Assembly (NCBI GenBank): GCA_947475445.1
Contig: CANJLC010000003.1
Coordinates: 124,001 to 188,000 of the forward strand
From: Alphaproteobacteria bacterium
GTDB lineage: Bacteria > Pseudomonadota > Alphaproteobacteria > Micropepsales > Micropepsaceae
Length of the DNA: 64,000 nucleotides
Reading direction: 5' to 3'
Program-made: the position numbers and the translations under genes
The notes under the pieces: model-generated
What the model was told of the DNA's origin: nothing
Seen by the model: only the letters and a program-made list of their open reading frames with translations
Database searches by the model: none
Shown: one piece after another, positions 46,758-61,060 of the stretch
Position numbering within the stretch: the stretch's first letter is position 1
Layout of the letters: each line of letters begins with the position of its first letter

Positions 46758-47350
46758 GCCGCAATGATTCCCTGGCCGCGCAGCGCTGCCAGCACCGGCA
46801 AGAGCGGCAGGCCCAAAATGGTGAAGACATCGCCTTCGACATTGTCGAACAGCTGCGCCCCGCGCCCTTCATAGCGATAGCCGCCCACACTGGACAATGC
46901 CTCATCGCCTTCCTGCAGGAGGTAATCTTCCAGGAATGCCGGACTGAGGGCGCGCATCGTCAGGTGGGCCGTGCCGGTATGATGCCAGAGCTGCACGCCG
47001 TCACGCACCAGCGAGGCGGCGGAAATCAGGTGGTGGGTCTTGCCGGACAATCGCTGCAAAAGGCTGCGAAGCTCGGCGATATCACGGCATTTGGAAATGA
47101 TCTCGGAGCCGAAAGCCAATACCGAATCCCCGCCCAGCACCAGGGCGCCCGGACTGCGGCGCGACACAGTCAGCGCCTTTTGCTCGGCCAGGGTCGCGGC
47201 GATATTTTGCGCCGGGGCCCCGTCATCGAGCAAATCGGCAATCAGCCCGGCCTCATTGATGTCGGCGGCGGAAACGCGGAACGGCACGCCCGCCGCCGTC
47301 AGCATGCGCTGGCGCGAGACACTGGCGGAGGCCAGCACCAGCCCGCTCAT
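46754..47350 (-). CDS. maf: Maf-family nucleotide pyrophosphatase
   Basis: 198-residue house-cleaning enzyme hydrolysing non-canonical or modified (methylated/uridine) NTPs. The Maf signature ASASVSRQRMLTAAGVPFRV opens the protein. LVLGGDSVLAFG and the KTHHLISAASLV region supply the active-site residues. It overlaps ppsR and aroE by 4 bases each. Sequence does not separate the dTTP/UTP and m7GTP subtypes for me. Confidence 0.93.
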   Translation of the reverse strand: MSGLVLASASVSRQRMLTAAGVPFRVSAADINEAGLIADLLDDGAPAQNIAATLAEQKALTVSRRSPGALVLGGDSVLAFGSEIISKCRDIAELRSLLQRLSGKTHHLISAASLVRDGVQLWHHTGTAHLTMRALSPAFLEDYLLQEGDEALSSVGGYRYEGRGAQLFDNVEGDVFTILGLPLLPVLAALRGQGIIAA

Positions 47351-48177
47351 GCGCCTGCTTCCGCCCGCTCGCGCCTGTCGGTGATCAGATTCATCACCGC
47401 CGCCGCGGTTTCCTCGATCGAGCGGCGCGTCACGTCCAGCTGCGGCCAGTCATGCTGTTCGAACAGGCGCCTTGTGGCGTTGACTTCCTCGCGCACCACG
47501 TCGGGATCAATATAATCGGTGCTGCGCACTTCGCCCATGCTGGCCAGCCGGTTGCGGCGCACCTGAAGCAGCCGGTCCGGCGACACCCACAGGCCCACGA
47601 TCAGGGGTTTTTTCGCCGCCAGCAATTGCTGCGGCGGGGGCATGCGCGGCACCAGGGGAACATTGGCGGCCTTGACGCCGCGAATGGCGAGATAGACGCA
47701 AGTTGGCGTCTTGGAGGTGCGGCTGGCGCCAGCGAGGATCACTTCGGCATCGCCGATCGTATCGAGCGACTGGCCATCATCATGGGCGATGGTGAAATTG
47801 AGGGTGTCGATGCGCTCCAGGTAGCGCTGGTCCACCTGGTGCTGGCGGCCGACCTTGTGGGTTTCGGTGGAGCCCAGGAACTGGCGCAGCGCCGTCACCG
47901 GCGCGTCCAGCACATCCACACATTCTATCAACAAGGCGTCGCAGCGCGCCACCAGCCTGTCGCGCAGGCCCTGGTTGGCAAGGGTGAAGAAAACCAGTCC
48001 CGGCGCGATGGTGACATGGTCCAGCGCCCTGGCCAGTTGATGCTCGGTGCGCACCAGGGCATAGAAATGCACTTGGACGTCGACATTCTCGAACTGCGCC
48101 AGCGCCGCATTGGCCAGGGCATTGAGGGTCTCGCCGGTGGAATCGGAGACCAGGTGAATATGAAATTTTTTCTCCAC
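47347..48177 (-). CDS. ppsR: PPDK/PEP-synthase regulatory kinase-phosphorylase (DUF299)
   Basis: 276-residue bifunctional ADP-dependent kinase/Pi-dependent phosphorylase regulating pyruvate phosphate dikinase or PEP synthase. It begins FHIHLVSDSTGETLNALANA. The P-loop is VILAGASRTSKTPTCVYLA, and the C-terminal TRRSIEETAAAV is typical. The start is a GTG at 48177. This protein (RP001-type) sits next to the origin in Caulobacter and Rickettsia; here it bounds the candidate origin region. Confidence 0.94.
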   Translation of the reverse strand: MEKKFHIHLVSDSTGETLNALANAALAQFENVDVQVHFYALVRTEHQLARALDHVTIAPGLVFFTLANQGLRDRLVARCDALLIECVDVLDAPVTALRQFLGSTETHKVGRQHQVDQRYLERIDTLNFTIAHDDGQSLDTIGDAEVILAGASRTSKTPTCVYLAIRGVKAANVPLVPRMPPPQQLLAAKKPLIVGLWVSPDRLLQVRRNRLASMGEVRSTDYIDPDVVREEVNATRRLFEQHDWPQLDVTRRSIEETAAAVMNLITDRRERAEAGA

Positions 48178-48455
48178 AGACCGTCCCGATTATTCGCTTC
48201 TGTCCAGAGCCCCAGCCCCTTATCCCCATCGGTCATGGCACAAGCCGCCATCCCGGATGGATGATTGTGCATGACAGGAGCGTGACAAGGATAGCATTTC
48301 GGGACAATTTGGCGAGGCTTGTTTGACCTAAGGCCTTGACCGGGCTCACCCTGCCGGCCCCGTCCGGCCAAAGCTTCCACAGATTCACAGGGCCTACTAC
48401 ATCTTCATCATTACCTTTAGGAAGAAGTTCTTATGAAGAAGGGACTGTGGGAACT
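48170..48455. other. Candidate chromosomal replication origin (oriC)
   Basis: The longest non-coding gap, between divergent ppsR and hemH, in the conserved alphaproteobacterial ori position. DnaA-box-like 9-mers with one mismatch to TTATNCACA/TTATCCACA: TTCTCCACA (48170-48178, +), TTATCCCCA (48220-48228, +) and TGTGCATGA (48266-48274, minus-strand box). AGATTCACA (48381-48389) is weaker and contains a CcrM-type GATTC. An AT-richer stretch (48395-48440) with TCTTCAT/ATGAAGA inverted repeats could unwind. Genes on both sides run away from it. Confidence 0.65.
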
Positions 48456-49487
48456 GTGAGAGTTGCGATCATCCTGTTCAATCTGGGCGGACCGGATAGT
48501 CCCGACGCGGTTGAACCGTTCCTGCGGAATCTTTTTTCCGATCCTGCGATCATTTCCCTGCCCTGGTTCTTGCGTCTTCCGCTGGCACGGCTGATTGCGC
48601 GGCGGCGGGCGCTGGTGGCCAGGGCGATCTATGATCACATCGGGGGACGCTCACCCATCCTTGAGGAGACCCAGCAGCAGGCCAGGGCGCTTGAGACGGC
48701 TGTGTCCGGGGGTGGGGTGACCGCCCGGGCCTTTGTCGCCATGCGGTGCTGGCATCCCTTCAGCGACGGCACGGCGCAGGCGGTCAAGATGTTCGCGCCG
48801 GACCATATCGTGGCGCTGCCGCTCTATCCGCAATATTCCGCCGCCACCAGCGGCTCTTCGCTCAAGGACTGGGACCGCGCTGCGAAAAAAGCGGGGCTGA
48901 CCCAGCCCATGACGCAAATCTGCTGCTATCCCGCGGAGCCGGGATTTATCGCGGCGTCTGTGGAAAAAATCCGCGCCGCGATGGCGGACCGCAAAGCGGG
49001 CCTGCAATACCGCCTGCTGCTGTCGGCGCACGGCCTGCCAAAAAAGAACATCAAGGCGGGCGATCCCTATCAATGGCAGGTGGAGCGCACCGCCCGCGCC
49101 CTTGTGGATGCGCTGGGGATAAAGGACTTGGACTGGAAAGTGACCTATCAAAGCCGGGTGGGACCGCTGCAATGGCTGGAGCCGGCGACGGATGCCGAGA
49201 TTGAACGGGCGGGCGCGCAAGGGATGGGCGTCATCGTGGCCCCCATCGCCTTTGTCAGCGAACATTCAGAAACCCTGGTGGAGCTGGATATTGAATATGC
49301 GGCGCTTGCGCGCAAATCCGGGGTGAAGGATTATCGGCGGAGCCCCACCGTGGGCGCCGACCCCGCATTCATTGCCGGGCTGGCCACGCTGGTGCGGCAG
49401 GCCATGAAGAATGGCGGCACGATCAGCAATGAAGACACAAGGCTGTGTCCGGAACAATTTTGCCGCTGTGCTCAGGAGAAAAGTTGA
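48456..49487 (+). CDS. hemH: Ferrochelatase HemH
   Basis: 343-residue enzyme inserting Fe2+ into protoporphyrin IX. It opens with VAIILFNLGGPDSPDAVEPF. The catalytic His lies in LLLSAHGLPKKNIKAGDPY, with the acidic partner in PIAFVSEHSETLVELDIEY. The ending CPEQFC gives a C-terminal cysteine pair, possible ligands of a 2Fe-2S cluster. The GTG at 48456 (or the in-frame GTG at 48447) starts the conserved region; longer readings would invade the origin gap. It is followed directly by hemJ. Confidence 0.93.
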   Translation: MRVAIILFNLGGPDSPDAVEPFLRNLFSDPAIISLPWFLRLPLARLIARRRALVARAIYDHIGGRSPILEETQQQARALETAVSGGGVTARAFVAMRCWHPFSDGTAQAVKMFAPDHIVALPLYPQYSAATSGSSLKDWDRAAKKAGLTQPMTQICCYPAEPGFIAASVEKIRAAMADRKAGLQYRLLLSAHGLPKKNIKAGDPYQWQVERTARALVDALGIKDLDWKVTYQSRVGPLQWLEPATDAEIERAGAQGMGVIVAPIAFVSEHSETLVELDIEYAALARKSGVKDYRRSPTVGADPAFIAGLATLVRQAMKNGGTISNEDTRLCPEQFCRCAQEKS

Positions 49488-56892: not shown

Positions 56893-58779
56893 ATGAAATA
56901 TGACGTCATCGTCATTGGCGGCGGCCATGCCGGTTGTGAAGCGGCTGCTGCGTCGGCGCGCGCCGGCGCCAAAACACTTTTGCTGACGCACAAGATTTCC
57001 ACCCTGGGCGAGATGTCCTGCAATCCCGCCATTGGCGGCGTCGGCAAGGGTCATCTGGTGCGCGAGATCGATGCGCTGGACGGATTGATGGGACGCGTCG
57101 CGGACGCGGCGGGAATCCAGTTTCGCCTGCTCAATCGCCGCAAGGGGCCGGCAGTGCGCGGACCGCGCGCCCAGGCCGATCGCGCGCTGTACCGCGCGGC
57201 CATGCAATCCGGGCTGCGCAACATTGCCAATCTGGAAATTTGTCAGGCGAGCGCAGAAGACCTGGTTTTAAAGGACGGGATCATCAGCGGTGTCATCACG
57301 GCGGATGGCGAGGAATTTTCCTGCGCGTCTGTTGTTCTGACCACGGGGACATTCTTGCGCGGCCTGGTGCATATCGGCGAAGTGCAATTTCCCGCCGGCC
57401 GCATGGCGGCGCATACCGCCGATGCCGACAAATCCGATCCGCCTTCCATCGGTCTTTCCAAAACGCTTTATGGTTTTGGTTTGCAGATGGGCCGATTGAA
57501 AACCGGCACGCCGCCGCGCCTGGATGGAAAGACGATTGATTGGCCGTCGCTGGAGATGCAGCAGGGCGACGAGCCGCCGGTGCCATTTTCGTTTCTGACC
57601 CGCGCCATCACCACGCCGCAGATCGCTTGCGGCATCACCCGCACCACGCTTGCCACCCATGCCGTGATCCGGGCCAACCTGCACCGCGCCCCGATGTATA
57701 CCGGCCAGATCGAAAGCACCGGGCCGCGTTATTGCCCGTCGATCGAGGACAAGGTGACCCGCTTCGCGGATCGGGAGAGCCACCAGATTTTCCTTGAGCC
57801 AGAAGGACTTAACGACGATACCATTTATCCCAACGGTATCTCGACCTCCCTGCCCCAGGATGTCCAGCTGGCCCTGATCGCCACCATTCCGGGGCTTGAA
57901 AAGGCGGTGGTGCGCCGGCCCGGCTATGCCATCGAATATGATTATGTCGATCCGCGCGAACTGACCCCTGCACTGGCGGTGCGAAAAGTCCCGGGTCTTT
58001 ACCTGGCGGGGCAGATCAATGGCACCACCGGCTATGAAGAAGCCGCCGCCCAGGGGCTGATGGCGGGGCTCAATGCCGCCCGCGCCGCTGGCGGCCAGGC
58101 GCCGGTCATTCTGGACCGGGCCCAGGCCTATATCGGGGTGATGATCGACGATCTGGTGACCAAGGGGGTCAGCGAGCCCTATCGCATGTTCACCTCGCGG
58201 GCTGAATACCGCCTGTCCCTGCGGGCCGACAATGCCGACCAGCGCCTGACCAAGCTGGGTGAAAGCGCCGGAATCGTGGGGGTTGAGCGCCAAAAAGCCT
58301 TTGCCGCCAAGATGGAAGAGTTGGCTGTTTCACGTGAAACAATGACCGCGCTGAGCCTCACCCCCAATGAAGCCGCCAAGCTGGGTCTCTTGATCCGCCA
58401 GGATGGCGTACGCCGCACGGCCCTCGATCTCCTCAGCCTGCCCGGCGTGGACTTCCCGGTGCTGACCCGGATTTGGCCGTCCCTGGCCCAGATGAAGCCC
58501 GAGATTGTCGAGCAGCTGGAAATTGACGCGCAATATTCCGGCTATCTGGACCGGCAGGAAGCCGATGTCCTGGCGTTCCGCCGGGACGAAGCCCGCGCCC
58601 TGCCCTCCGGCCTGGATTATTCAGCCGTTATTGGCCTTTCCACGGAAGTGCGCGGCAAGCTGGAGCGCATCCGCCCCCTGACCCTGGGCCAGGCCGCCCG
58701 GATCGAGGGGGTCACCTCGGCCGCCCTGACCTTGGTGCTGGCGCATGTCAAGAGCCTGAAAAAGGCAAAAAGTGCCTGA
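56893..58779 (+). CDS. mnmG: tRNA U34 carboxymethylaminomethyltransferase MnmG (GidA)
   Basis: 628-residue FAD enzyme, partner of MnmE. The FAD motif is [20 protein letters not shown], followed by [20 protein letters not shown], the catalytic-loop region and the C-terminal [13 protein letters not shown] perfect parS (58326-58341) is embedded in its 3' part as codons for VSRET. It lies 13 bases after mnmE and overlaps rsmG by 8 bases, the standard gidA-gidB order. Confidence 0.97.
58326..58341. other. parS centromere site 1 (inside mnmG)
   Basis: TGTTTCACGTGAAACA is an exact match to the 16-base consensus ParB site, a perfect palindrome. Read in the mnmG frame it encodes Val-Ser-Arg-Glu-Thr in [11 protein letters not shown]. 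It lies about 10 kb from the candidate origin and 1.9 kb before parB. Confidence 0.95.
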
Positions 58780-59464
58780 TTTCAATGACTTAGAACCAGA
58801 CGAATTCGCCGCCGGAACCGGTGTTTCACGTGAAACATTGGCCAGGCTGAGGGCCTATGTCGCCCTGCTGCAGGACTGGAATAGCCGGCACAATCTGGTG
58901 TCCCCCGGGTCCCTGGCGAATGTCTGGCGGCGGCATATCTGGGACAGCGCCCAGCTTGTACCCCTCGTTCCGCCTGACGCCCGGACATTGGTCGATCTGG
59001 GTTCGGGCGCCGGCTTCCCCGGCCTGGTGCTGGCGGAAATGCTGCGGGACCGGGTTTCCGTCACCCTGATCGAGGCCACCGGCAAGAAATGCGATTTCCT
59101 GCGGGCGGCAGCCGAACTGATGGCCCTGCCGGTCAAGATCCGCAACATGCGTTCGGAGGATTGCCCGCCGCAGGTGTTTGACGTGGTCACCTCCCGCGCC
59201 TGCGCCCCCCTGCCCCGGCTGCTGGGATTCGCCCATAAATTCACAGGCCCGAACAGCGTTTGCCTGTTCCTGAAAGGACAAAATCTGGGGTCTGAATTGA
59301 CGGAAGCCCGTAAATCTTGGAGTATGAAGGACAGGCAGATACCAAGCCTGACTGACCCTTCCGGAACGGTTCTGGAGGTCACGGAACTGGTGCCAAATGA
59401 CTTCGAGCCCCCAAAAGAAGCCCCGCATCCTGGTGGTCGCCAATCAAAAAGGCGGCGTCGGTAA
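58772..59464 (+). CDS. rsmG: 16S rRNA m7G527 methyltransferase RsmG (GidB)
   Basis: 230-residue SAM methyltransferase. The SAM motif is [16 protein letters not shown] and the acidic substrate motif is [19 protein letters not shown], followed by [17 protein letters not shown]. The start is a GTG at 58772, overlapping mnmG by 8 bases. A parS lies in codons 18-22 (VSRET). The C-terminus is a basic tail (KRRRR) that overlaps the parA start by 68 bases, an unusually long overlap. Confidence 0.94.
58822..58837. other. parS centromere site 2 (inside rsmG)
   Basis: A second exact TGTTTCACGTGAAACA, 496 bases after the first. It is read in the rsmG frame as Val-Ser-Arg-Glu-Thr ([11 protein letters not shown]). 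Two perfect sites this close to parAB indicate the ParB loading zone of the chromosome. Confidence 0.95.
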
Positions 59465-60209
59465 AACCACGACCGCCATCAATCTGGGGACCGCCCTGGC
59501 CGCGGTGGGCGAGCCCACCCTGGTGATCGACATCGACCCCCAGGGCAATGCCTCGACGGGACTGGGGGTGCCGCGCTCGGCCCGCAAGCTCACCACCTAT
59601 GACGTGCTGATGGGCGAGGCCAAGCTGGCCGACTGCATCGTGGCCACGCGCATTCCCAAATTGTCGCTGGTGCCGGCCACCGTGGACCTGTCGGGCGCCG
59701 AGCTGGAATTGATTGACCGCGAGCGCCGCAACTTCATCCTGAAGGACGCGCTGGAAGAATATTCCGTACACGGAGAAAATGCCTTTTCCTATGTGCTGAT
59801 TGACTGCCCGCCTTCCCTGACGCTGCTGACCATCAACGCCATGTGCGCCGCCGACGCCGTGATGGTGCCGCTGCAATGCGAATTCTTCGCGCTGGAAGGC
59901 TTGAGCCAGCTGCTCAAGACGATTGAGCTTGTGAAGGTCAATCTCAATCCGTCGCTGGCGATCCAGGGCATCGTGCTGACCATGTTCGACAAGCGCAACA
60001 AATTGTCGGACCAGGTGGCCGCGGATGTGCGGGAAAATATGGGCGAAATCGTTTATTCCACCGTGATCCCGCGCAATGTGCGAATCTCCGAAGCGCCGTC
60101 GCACGGCGTGCCGGCCCTGGTCTATGACCTGCGCTGTCCCGGCAGCCAGGCCTATATCAAGCTGGCGGGCGAATTGATCCAGCGCGAAAAGATCCGGGTC
60201 GCGGCATGA
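59397..60209 (+). CDS. parA: Chromosome partitioning ATPase ParA (Soj)
   Basis: 270-residue Walker-type ATPase. The deviant Walker A is KGGVGKTT at 18-25 (with the signature Lys), Walker A' is IDIDPQGNASTGLGV, and Walker B is VLIDCPPSLTLLTINAM. It forms the ATP-dependent gradient that moves ParB-parS complexes. The ATG at 59397 lies in the end of rsmG; starting later would cut the Walker A strand. It overlaps parB by 4 bases. Confidence 0.96.
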   Translation: MTSSPQKKPRILVVANQKGGVGKTTTAINLGTALAAVGEPTLVIDIDPQGNASTGLGVPRSARKLTTYDVLMGEAKLADCIVATRIPKLSLVPATVDLSGAELELIDRERRNFILKDALEEYSVHGENAFSYVLIDCPPSLTLLTINAMCAADAVMVPLQCEFFALEGLSQLLKTIELVKVNLNPSLAIQGIVLTMFDKRNKLSDQVAADVRENMGEIVYSTVIPRNVRISEAPSHGVPALVYDLRCPGSQAYIKLAGELIQREKIRVAA

Positions 60210-61060
60210 CACCCAAGGAAGAACCGCGCCGCGGTCTTGGCCGCGGCCTGTCCGCCCTGATCGGCGACGAGGCGGCGCCCACGCGCGGCGAGATGCCCAA
60301 GGGCACGCGCACGCTGCCGGTCGCATTCCTGCGGCCGGGCAAATTCCAGCCGCGCAAATATTTCGCCGAAAGCGAACTTTCGGACCTCGCCAATTCGGTG
60401 AAGGAGAAGGGCGTCCTGACCCCCATCCTGGTTCGCCCGCTGGGCGGGGATTCCTACGAGATCGTGGCGGGCGAGCGGCGCTGGCGCGCCGCCCAGATGG
60501 CCCAGCTACACGACGTCCCGGTGGTGGTGCGCGAGCTGGCGGACGCCGAGGCGCTGGAGCTGGCGATCATCGAAAATGTCCAGCGGGCCGACCTCAATGT
60601 GATTGAGGAAGCGGCCGCCTATCAGGAGCTGGTCAACCGCTTTGGCCGCACCCAGGAACAGGTGGCGCAGCAGGTGGGCAAGAGCCGCCCCCATGTGGCG
60701 AACAGCATTCGGCTGCTCAAGTTGCCTGAGAGCGTCCAGGCCCTGATCCGGGAGGGAAAACTCACCGCCGGCCACGCCCGAACACTGTTAAGCGCGGCTG
60801 ATCCCGAGGCTGCTGCCAAGGAAATCCTGTCGGGGCATCTCAATGTCCGGCAGGCCGAACAGCGTTCGGCGGCAAAGAAAAAGCCTGTGGGCGCAAAGCG
60901 GGTGGACCCCAATATTCACCAACTGGAATCCAGCATTTCCAACAAGTTGGGGCTGAAGGTTCAGATTATGCACAAAGGGGATAAGGGTGGGGAAATCCGC
61001 GTTTCCTACCGCACCCTGGAGCAGCTGGACGAAGTCGCCCGCCGCCTGGGCAAGGCCTGA
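60206..61060 (+). CDS. parB: Chromosome partitioning CTPase/DNA-binding protein ParB
   Basis: 284 residues. An N-terminal ParA-activating basic segment (RRGLGRGLSALIG) precedes the CTP-binding N-terminal domain with GERRWRAAQ (about 89) and ENVQRADLN (about 122). An HTH domain for parS follows (EQVAQQVGKSRPHVANSIRL), and a C-terminal dimerisation helix ends the protein. It is the binder of the two parS sites upstream. Its ATGA start overlaps the parA stop. Confidence 0.97.
   Translation: MTPKEEPRRGLGRGLSALIGDEAAPTRGEMPKGTRTLPVAFLRPGKFQPRKYFAESELSDLANSVKEKGVLTPILVRPLGGDSYEIVAGERRWRAAQMAQLHDVPVVVRELADAEALELAIIENVQRADLNVIEEAAAYQELVNRFGRTQEQVAQQVGKSRPHVANSIRLLKLPESVQALIREGKLTAGHARTLLSAADPEAAAKEILSGHLNVRQAEQRSAAKKKPVGAKRVDPNIHQLESSISNKLGLKVQIMHKGDKGGEIRVSYRTLEQLDEVARRLGKA

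Follow-up and report, generated by a model that had tools for sequence, protein, structure and literature searches.

The chromosomal origins of Caulobacter crescentus and Rickettsia prowazekii sit between hemE and a COG1806 gene, equivalent to ppsR (PMC1914354). A T-to-G substitution is a feature of the Caulobacter G-boxes, and CtrA sites are absent from most alphaproteobacterial origins outside Caulobacter and, possibly, Rickettsia (both PMC4468827). The bacterial core origin unwinding system (BUS) comprises DnaA-boxes, a spacer and DnaA-trios, and its published rule calls for a DnaA-box with no more than two mismatches within 16 bp of at least three trios (PMC8287927).

The window, by which we mean the whole 64-kb stretch of DNA analysed here (G000:C3:124001-188000, from a genome of 2.17 Mb in 29 contigs, 98% complete), contains a locus of this kind. 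Reading from left to right, the order is secB, dnaQ, coaE, aroE, maf and ppsR (minus strand), a 278-bp gap, then hemH, hemJ, rho, a few unrelated genes, mnmE, mnmG, rsmG, parA and parB, with the names rho and rsmG resting on translated reading frames only. Judged by gene order, this is the standard setting of an alphaproteobacterial origin, with ppsR as its canonical left flank, and the gap at 48178-48455 is very probably the chromosomal oriC. The first-pass annotation likewise placed the Caulobacter and Rickettsia origins beside ppsR-like and heme genes, in agreement with the COG1806/hemE placement of PMC1914354. The features of the locus are as follows.

47347-48177, minus strand: ppsR (COG1806 / RP001-type PPDK/PEP synthase regulator; NCBIfam NF003742, 314 bits), start codon at 48175-48177
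48170-48178, plus strand: DnaA-box-like TTCTCCACA, sharing bases with the start codon of ppsR; its CCACA stands in a block conserved among the 31 aligned genomes
48178-48455, no strand: putative oriC intergenic region between ppsR and hemH, 278 bp, 54% GC
48220-48228, plus strand: TTATCCCCA, containing a weak TCCCCA motif, without conservation in relatives
48266-48274, minus strand: TCATGCACA, differing from TTATCCACA at two positions; conservation only partial (box search and alignment)
48334-48340, plus strand: conserved CTTGA element (near-invariant alignment columns)
48373-48389, plus strand: a tandem pair of weak DnaA-box-like sites, GCTTCCACA and AGATTCACA, and a single GANTC between them; conserved columns, three mismatches each from TTATCCACA
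48390-48412, plus strand: GGGC(C) spacer and DnaA-trio-like run CTA CTA c ATC TTC ATC ATT (core motif match; pattern defined in PMC8287927)
48400-48440, no strand: AT-richest block, candidate duplex unwinding element (68% AT at 48400-48439; alignment)
48433-48459, plus strand: 8-codon open frame MKKGLWEL*, a hemE start remnant overlapping the hemH GTG (alignment)
48456-49487, plus strand: hemH (ferrochelatase; TIGR00109), the present right flank, GTG start at 48456
58327-58340, no strand: parS GTTTCACGTGAAAC in the 3' part of mnmG (motif search)
58823-58836, no strand: parS GTTTCACGTGAAAC at the start of rsmG (motif search)
59397-60209, plus strand: parA (ParA/MinD-type models)
60206-61060, plus strand: parB (TIGR00180, 195 bits)

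As had been noted from the sequence, the flanking genes point away from the gap, ppsR and hemH being divergent around 278 non-coding bp. An AT-richer block, also noted, is present in the terminal part listed above, and the gap as a whole exceeds the genome average in AT content (54% versus 63% GC). That the gap is the largest non-coding stretch of the window is less certain: a first gene call leaves bigger apparent gaps at 32.3-33.1, 35.6-36.2 and 40.2-40.5 kb, and because all of these contain open frames, the gap ranks at the least with the largest. Searches for tRNAs and Rfam families found none within the 64-kb window.

The ppsR flank of the Cori-type definition is present, whereas the hemE flank is replaced by hemH; hemE itself is located on contig C4. 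In most sampled members of the genus, and in other families, hemE adjoins the site, and since other families have it there we take this to be the ancestral state. It is missing from the site in eight of the 30 genus members placed in a PpsR tree, which requires five hemE changes, at least four of them on well-supported branches. The classical hemE border of the origin thus appears to be dispensable. A vestige of the former hemE start, an open frame of five to eight codons that overlaps the hemH start, persists in the window species and in the two relatives closest to it. Five-codon frames akin to the one listed above occur in L021 and L022, and the overlap of its stop with the hemH GTG makes translational coupling possible.

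When 31 genus members are aligned, conservation within the gap is strongest at its hemH end (48373-48440, CTTCCACAGATTCACAGGGCCTACTACATCTTCATCATTACC...), in a core of weak tandem boxes, spacer and trio-like triplets that the first-pass annotation overlooked. In the relatives this core reads CCACAAyTCACAGCCCTAACATCATCTTCATCATC, and the AT-richest block continues into the ribosome site of hemE and its TTG start codon. The bases kept by selection are those of weak tandem boxes and triplets, not of high-affinity boxes. A search with the core pattern TNCACAGNCCNNACAWCATCTTCATCATC, allowing up to three mismatches, returns exactly one match in each of 29 genus members out of 61, as against 0 for the reversed control; the remaining 32 have a core too divergent for the pattern, or unread. 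The match here is at 48384-48412, and in genomes with a known ppsR coordinate it falls about 200 bp from that gene. In most of the other families that were read, the same layout stands just before hemE: one or more boxes, a spacer, triplets of the CTAC type and AT-rich sequence, as in TTATCCACAGCCATCCACCACCACTACCACC and TTACACAGCCATCCACTACTACTACATTAC. The window has 17 instances of a box this weak (three mismatches) with four triplets after it, so the origin call rests on conservation and not on the single sequence.

Such conservation might also be read as that of a hemE/hemH promoter and 5' leader and nothing more, the true origin lying elsewhere. The CTTGA element at 48334-48340 probably represents the -35 of the promoter that ancestrally belonged to hemE and now belongs to hemH, and together with the AGGAGTC-TTG block of the relatives it would supply a hemE promoter and translation start. 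However, the tandem-box and triplet block is upstream of the ribosome site and is kept in all eight sampled genomes without hemE at the site, across about five independent changes; no Rfam leader is found there, and parS, dif and synteny still point to the ppsR-hemH gap. We consider the promoter reading very improbable.

The genome has only two parS sites (GTTTCACGTGAAAC), both approximately 10 kb from the gap, and in four other genomes (G028, G029, G002 and G044) parS lies 12-16 kb from ppsR. Neither of two initial dif patterns matches the window's genome or G028; a motif found once in G002 has a single match in each of eight genus members. This genus-specific dif-like site, one per genome, is ATCGTATAAGTAATATTATGTAAAA at G000:C1:266740-266764. 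In G028, a single contig of 4.64 Mb, the dif-like site at 1.34 Mb is nearly opposite the ppsR locus at 3.516 Mb, and 59% (54-63%) of genes are on the leading strand if the origin is placed at that locus. It is because synteny, parS, the dif-like site, this gene bias and the once-per-genome core all agree that we read the ppsR-hemH gap as oriC, as the first-pass annotation had proposed.

GC skew tells a different story. A skew minimum at the site, proposed earlier as a check, is not what the contig shows: the cumulative skew of C3 keeps rising through the gap. In G028, cumulative skew peaks at 3.5-3.6 Mb, at the locus, and is lowest near 1.05 Mb (60 samples covering 26% of the genome), with an equally good two-part division arising in 1 of 200 permutations. 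We separated coding-strand and replication-strand components at four-fold sites, calling genes with a simple heuristic based on codon position. For G028 this gives a leading-strand component of -0.038 (-0.057 to -0.019). That of G029 within 0.9 Mb of the locus (-0.021) and that of C3 in the window's genome (-0.009) both have intervals that include 0. For the window's genome the skew data cover C3 and positions 1-77 kb of C1; this part of C1 gives -0.070, provided that the dif orientation is taken to be that of G028. G044, which belongs to another family with the same locus, has a component of +0.097 and a normal sign change (minimum) at the locus, with dif near the opposite change; in G002 the shift is weak and runs the normal way, one side being represented by two samples. 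Support for the reversal is thus good in G028 and suggestive elsewhere, and the pattern is not uniform. Most of the relatives appear to be draft or metagenome assemblies.

Read in the usual way, the G028 curve would put the ppsR locus near the terminus and the origin at the minimum. This we regard as very improbable, since the positions of parS (at the locus) and of the dif-like site (1.34 Mb) would then be the wrong way round, and G044 has its minimum at the very same locus. We lean instead towards a replication-linked GC skew that is reversed in the genus, with a C-rich leading strand, around an otherwise normal, conserved origin, the skew of the other family being normal. The locus is then an ordinary oriC, and the surprising part is the reversal. 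Being weak and apparently reversed, skew is not usable here in the usual way. GC skew has been found insufficient for several alphaproteobacteria (PMC1914354), and among 185 chromosomes significant negative values were confined to two actinobacteria and three epsilonproteobacteria (PMC2031905). Should the reversal hold, skew-based finders would name the terminus as the origin throughout this group, which would become a test case for the causes of GC skew.

The three 9-mers first listed as one-mismatch DnaA boxes all exist, although TCATGCACA is one base off only against TTATNCACA. As key elements they fare unequally across the 31 genomes: TTCTCCACA is conserved, TCATGCACA partly so and TTATCCCCA not, and the main core is elsewhere. 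At the ppsR-start position several relatives carry TGATCCACA, a box with the T-to-G substitution of the Caulobacter G-boxes. The weak boxes at 48170, 48373 and 48381 are conserved and, as predicted sites, supply the DnaA boxes of a Cori-type oriC. Near-boxes show no genome-wide enrichment (TTATCCACA with up to one mismatch, 167 sites versus 184 for the reversed control); this, in conjunction with a three-box cluster before dnaE, makes their number alone weak evidence. That cluster (C1:27193-27429, one perfect and two one-mismatch boxes in 237 bp) was rejected as a most unlikely origin, lying between lolD and dnaE with rpsB-tsf beyond, which is not an origin neighbourhood, and having no parS nearby. 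A DnaA-regulated dnaE promoter would fit it better, and DnaA control of the replicative polymerase gene is possible.

The genome encodes CtrA (424 bits against a cut-off of 350 in a profile search), GcrA and one CcrM-type N6-methylase. TTAA-N7-TTAA with up to one mismatch is absent from the gap, consistent with the earlier remark that no clear CtrA full sites are visible, and the relatives' gaps hold one near-match among 31 genomes. We do not count CtrA sites as defining for the class, because PMC4468827 finds them missing from most other alphaproteobacterial origins; CtrA control differing from that of Caulobacter is possible. GANTC, by comparison, occurs in the gaps of the genus at 9.25 per kb versus 1.45 in the window (86 observed versus 34 expected from composition, in sequences related to each other), mostly at the hemE promoter, ribosome site and start. 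The window species retains one, within the tandem boxes, the others having been lost together with hemE.

In the predicted course of events, DnaA would bind at the ppsR start, where there is a weak box, and at the weak tandem sites of 48373-48389, and would then be passed onto the single-stranded triplet run at 48394-48412. The AT-rich stretch to approximately 48440 would open for helicase loading, and ParB-parS 10 kb away would separate the new origins. Such an assignment fixes the origin for an alphaproteobacterial genus known here mainly from metagenome-assembled genomes.

Compared with Caulobacter Cori, the locus lacks the five CtrA full sites and is shorter (278 bp versus more than 400 bp); relative to both Cori and the R. 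prowazekii oriC, hemE is gone and hemH directly adjoins. The ppsR (COG1806) flank and the heme side are shared with both, as are DnaA boxes that are few and weak (PMC4468827). With regard to BUS, the boxes are weaker than the published rule permits, and a one-base slip follows the second triplet. The best core box is followed by four trios, and the copy here falls outside the rule because both core boxes have three mismatches; 13 of the 31 genomes satisfy it, 10 of them within the core. As a putative BUS, the copy has its tandem pair of box-like sites, its GGGC(C) spacer and its triplets in the right order and on the right strand, and the CTACTA triplets are those of other alphaproteobacterial families.
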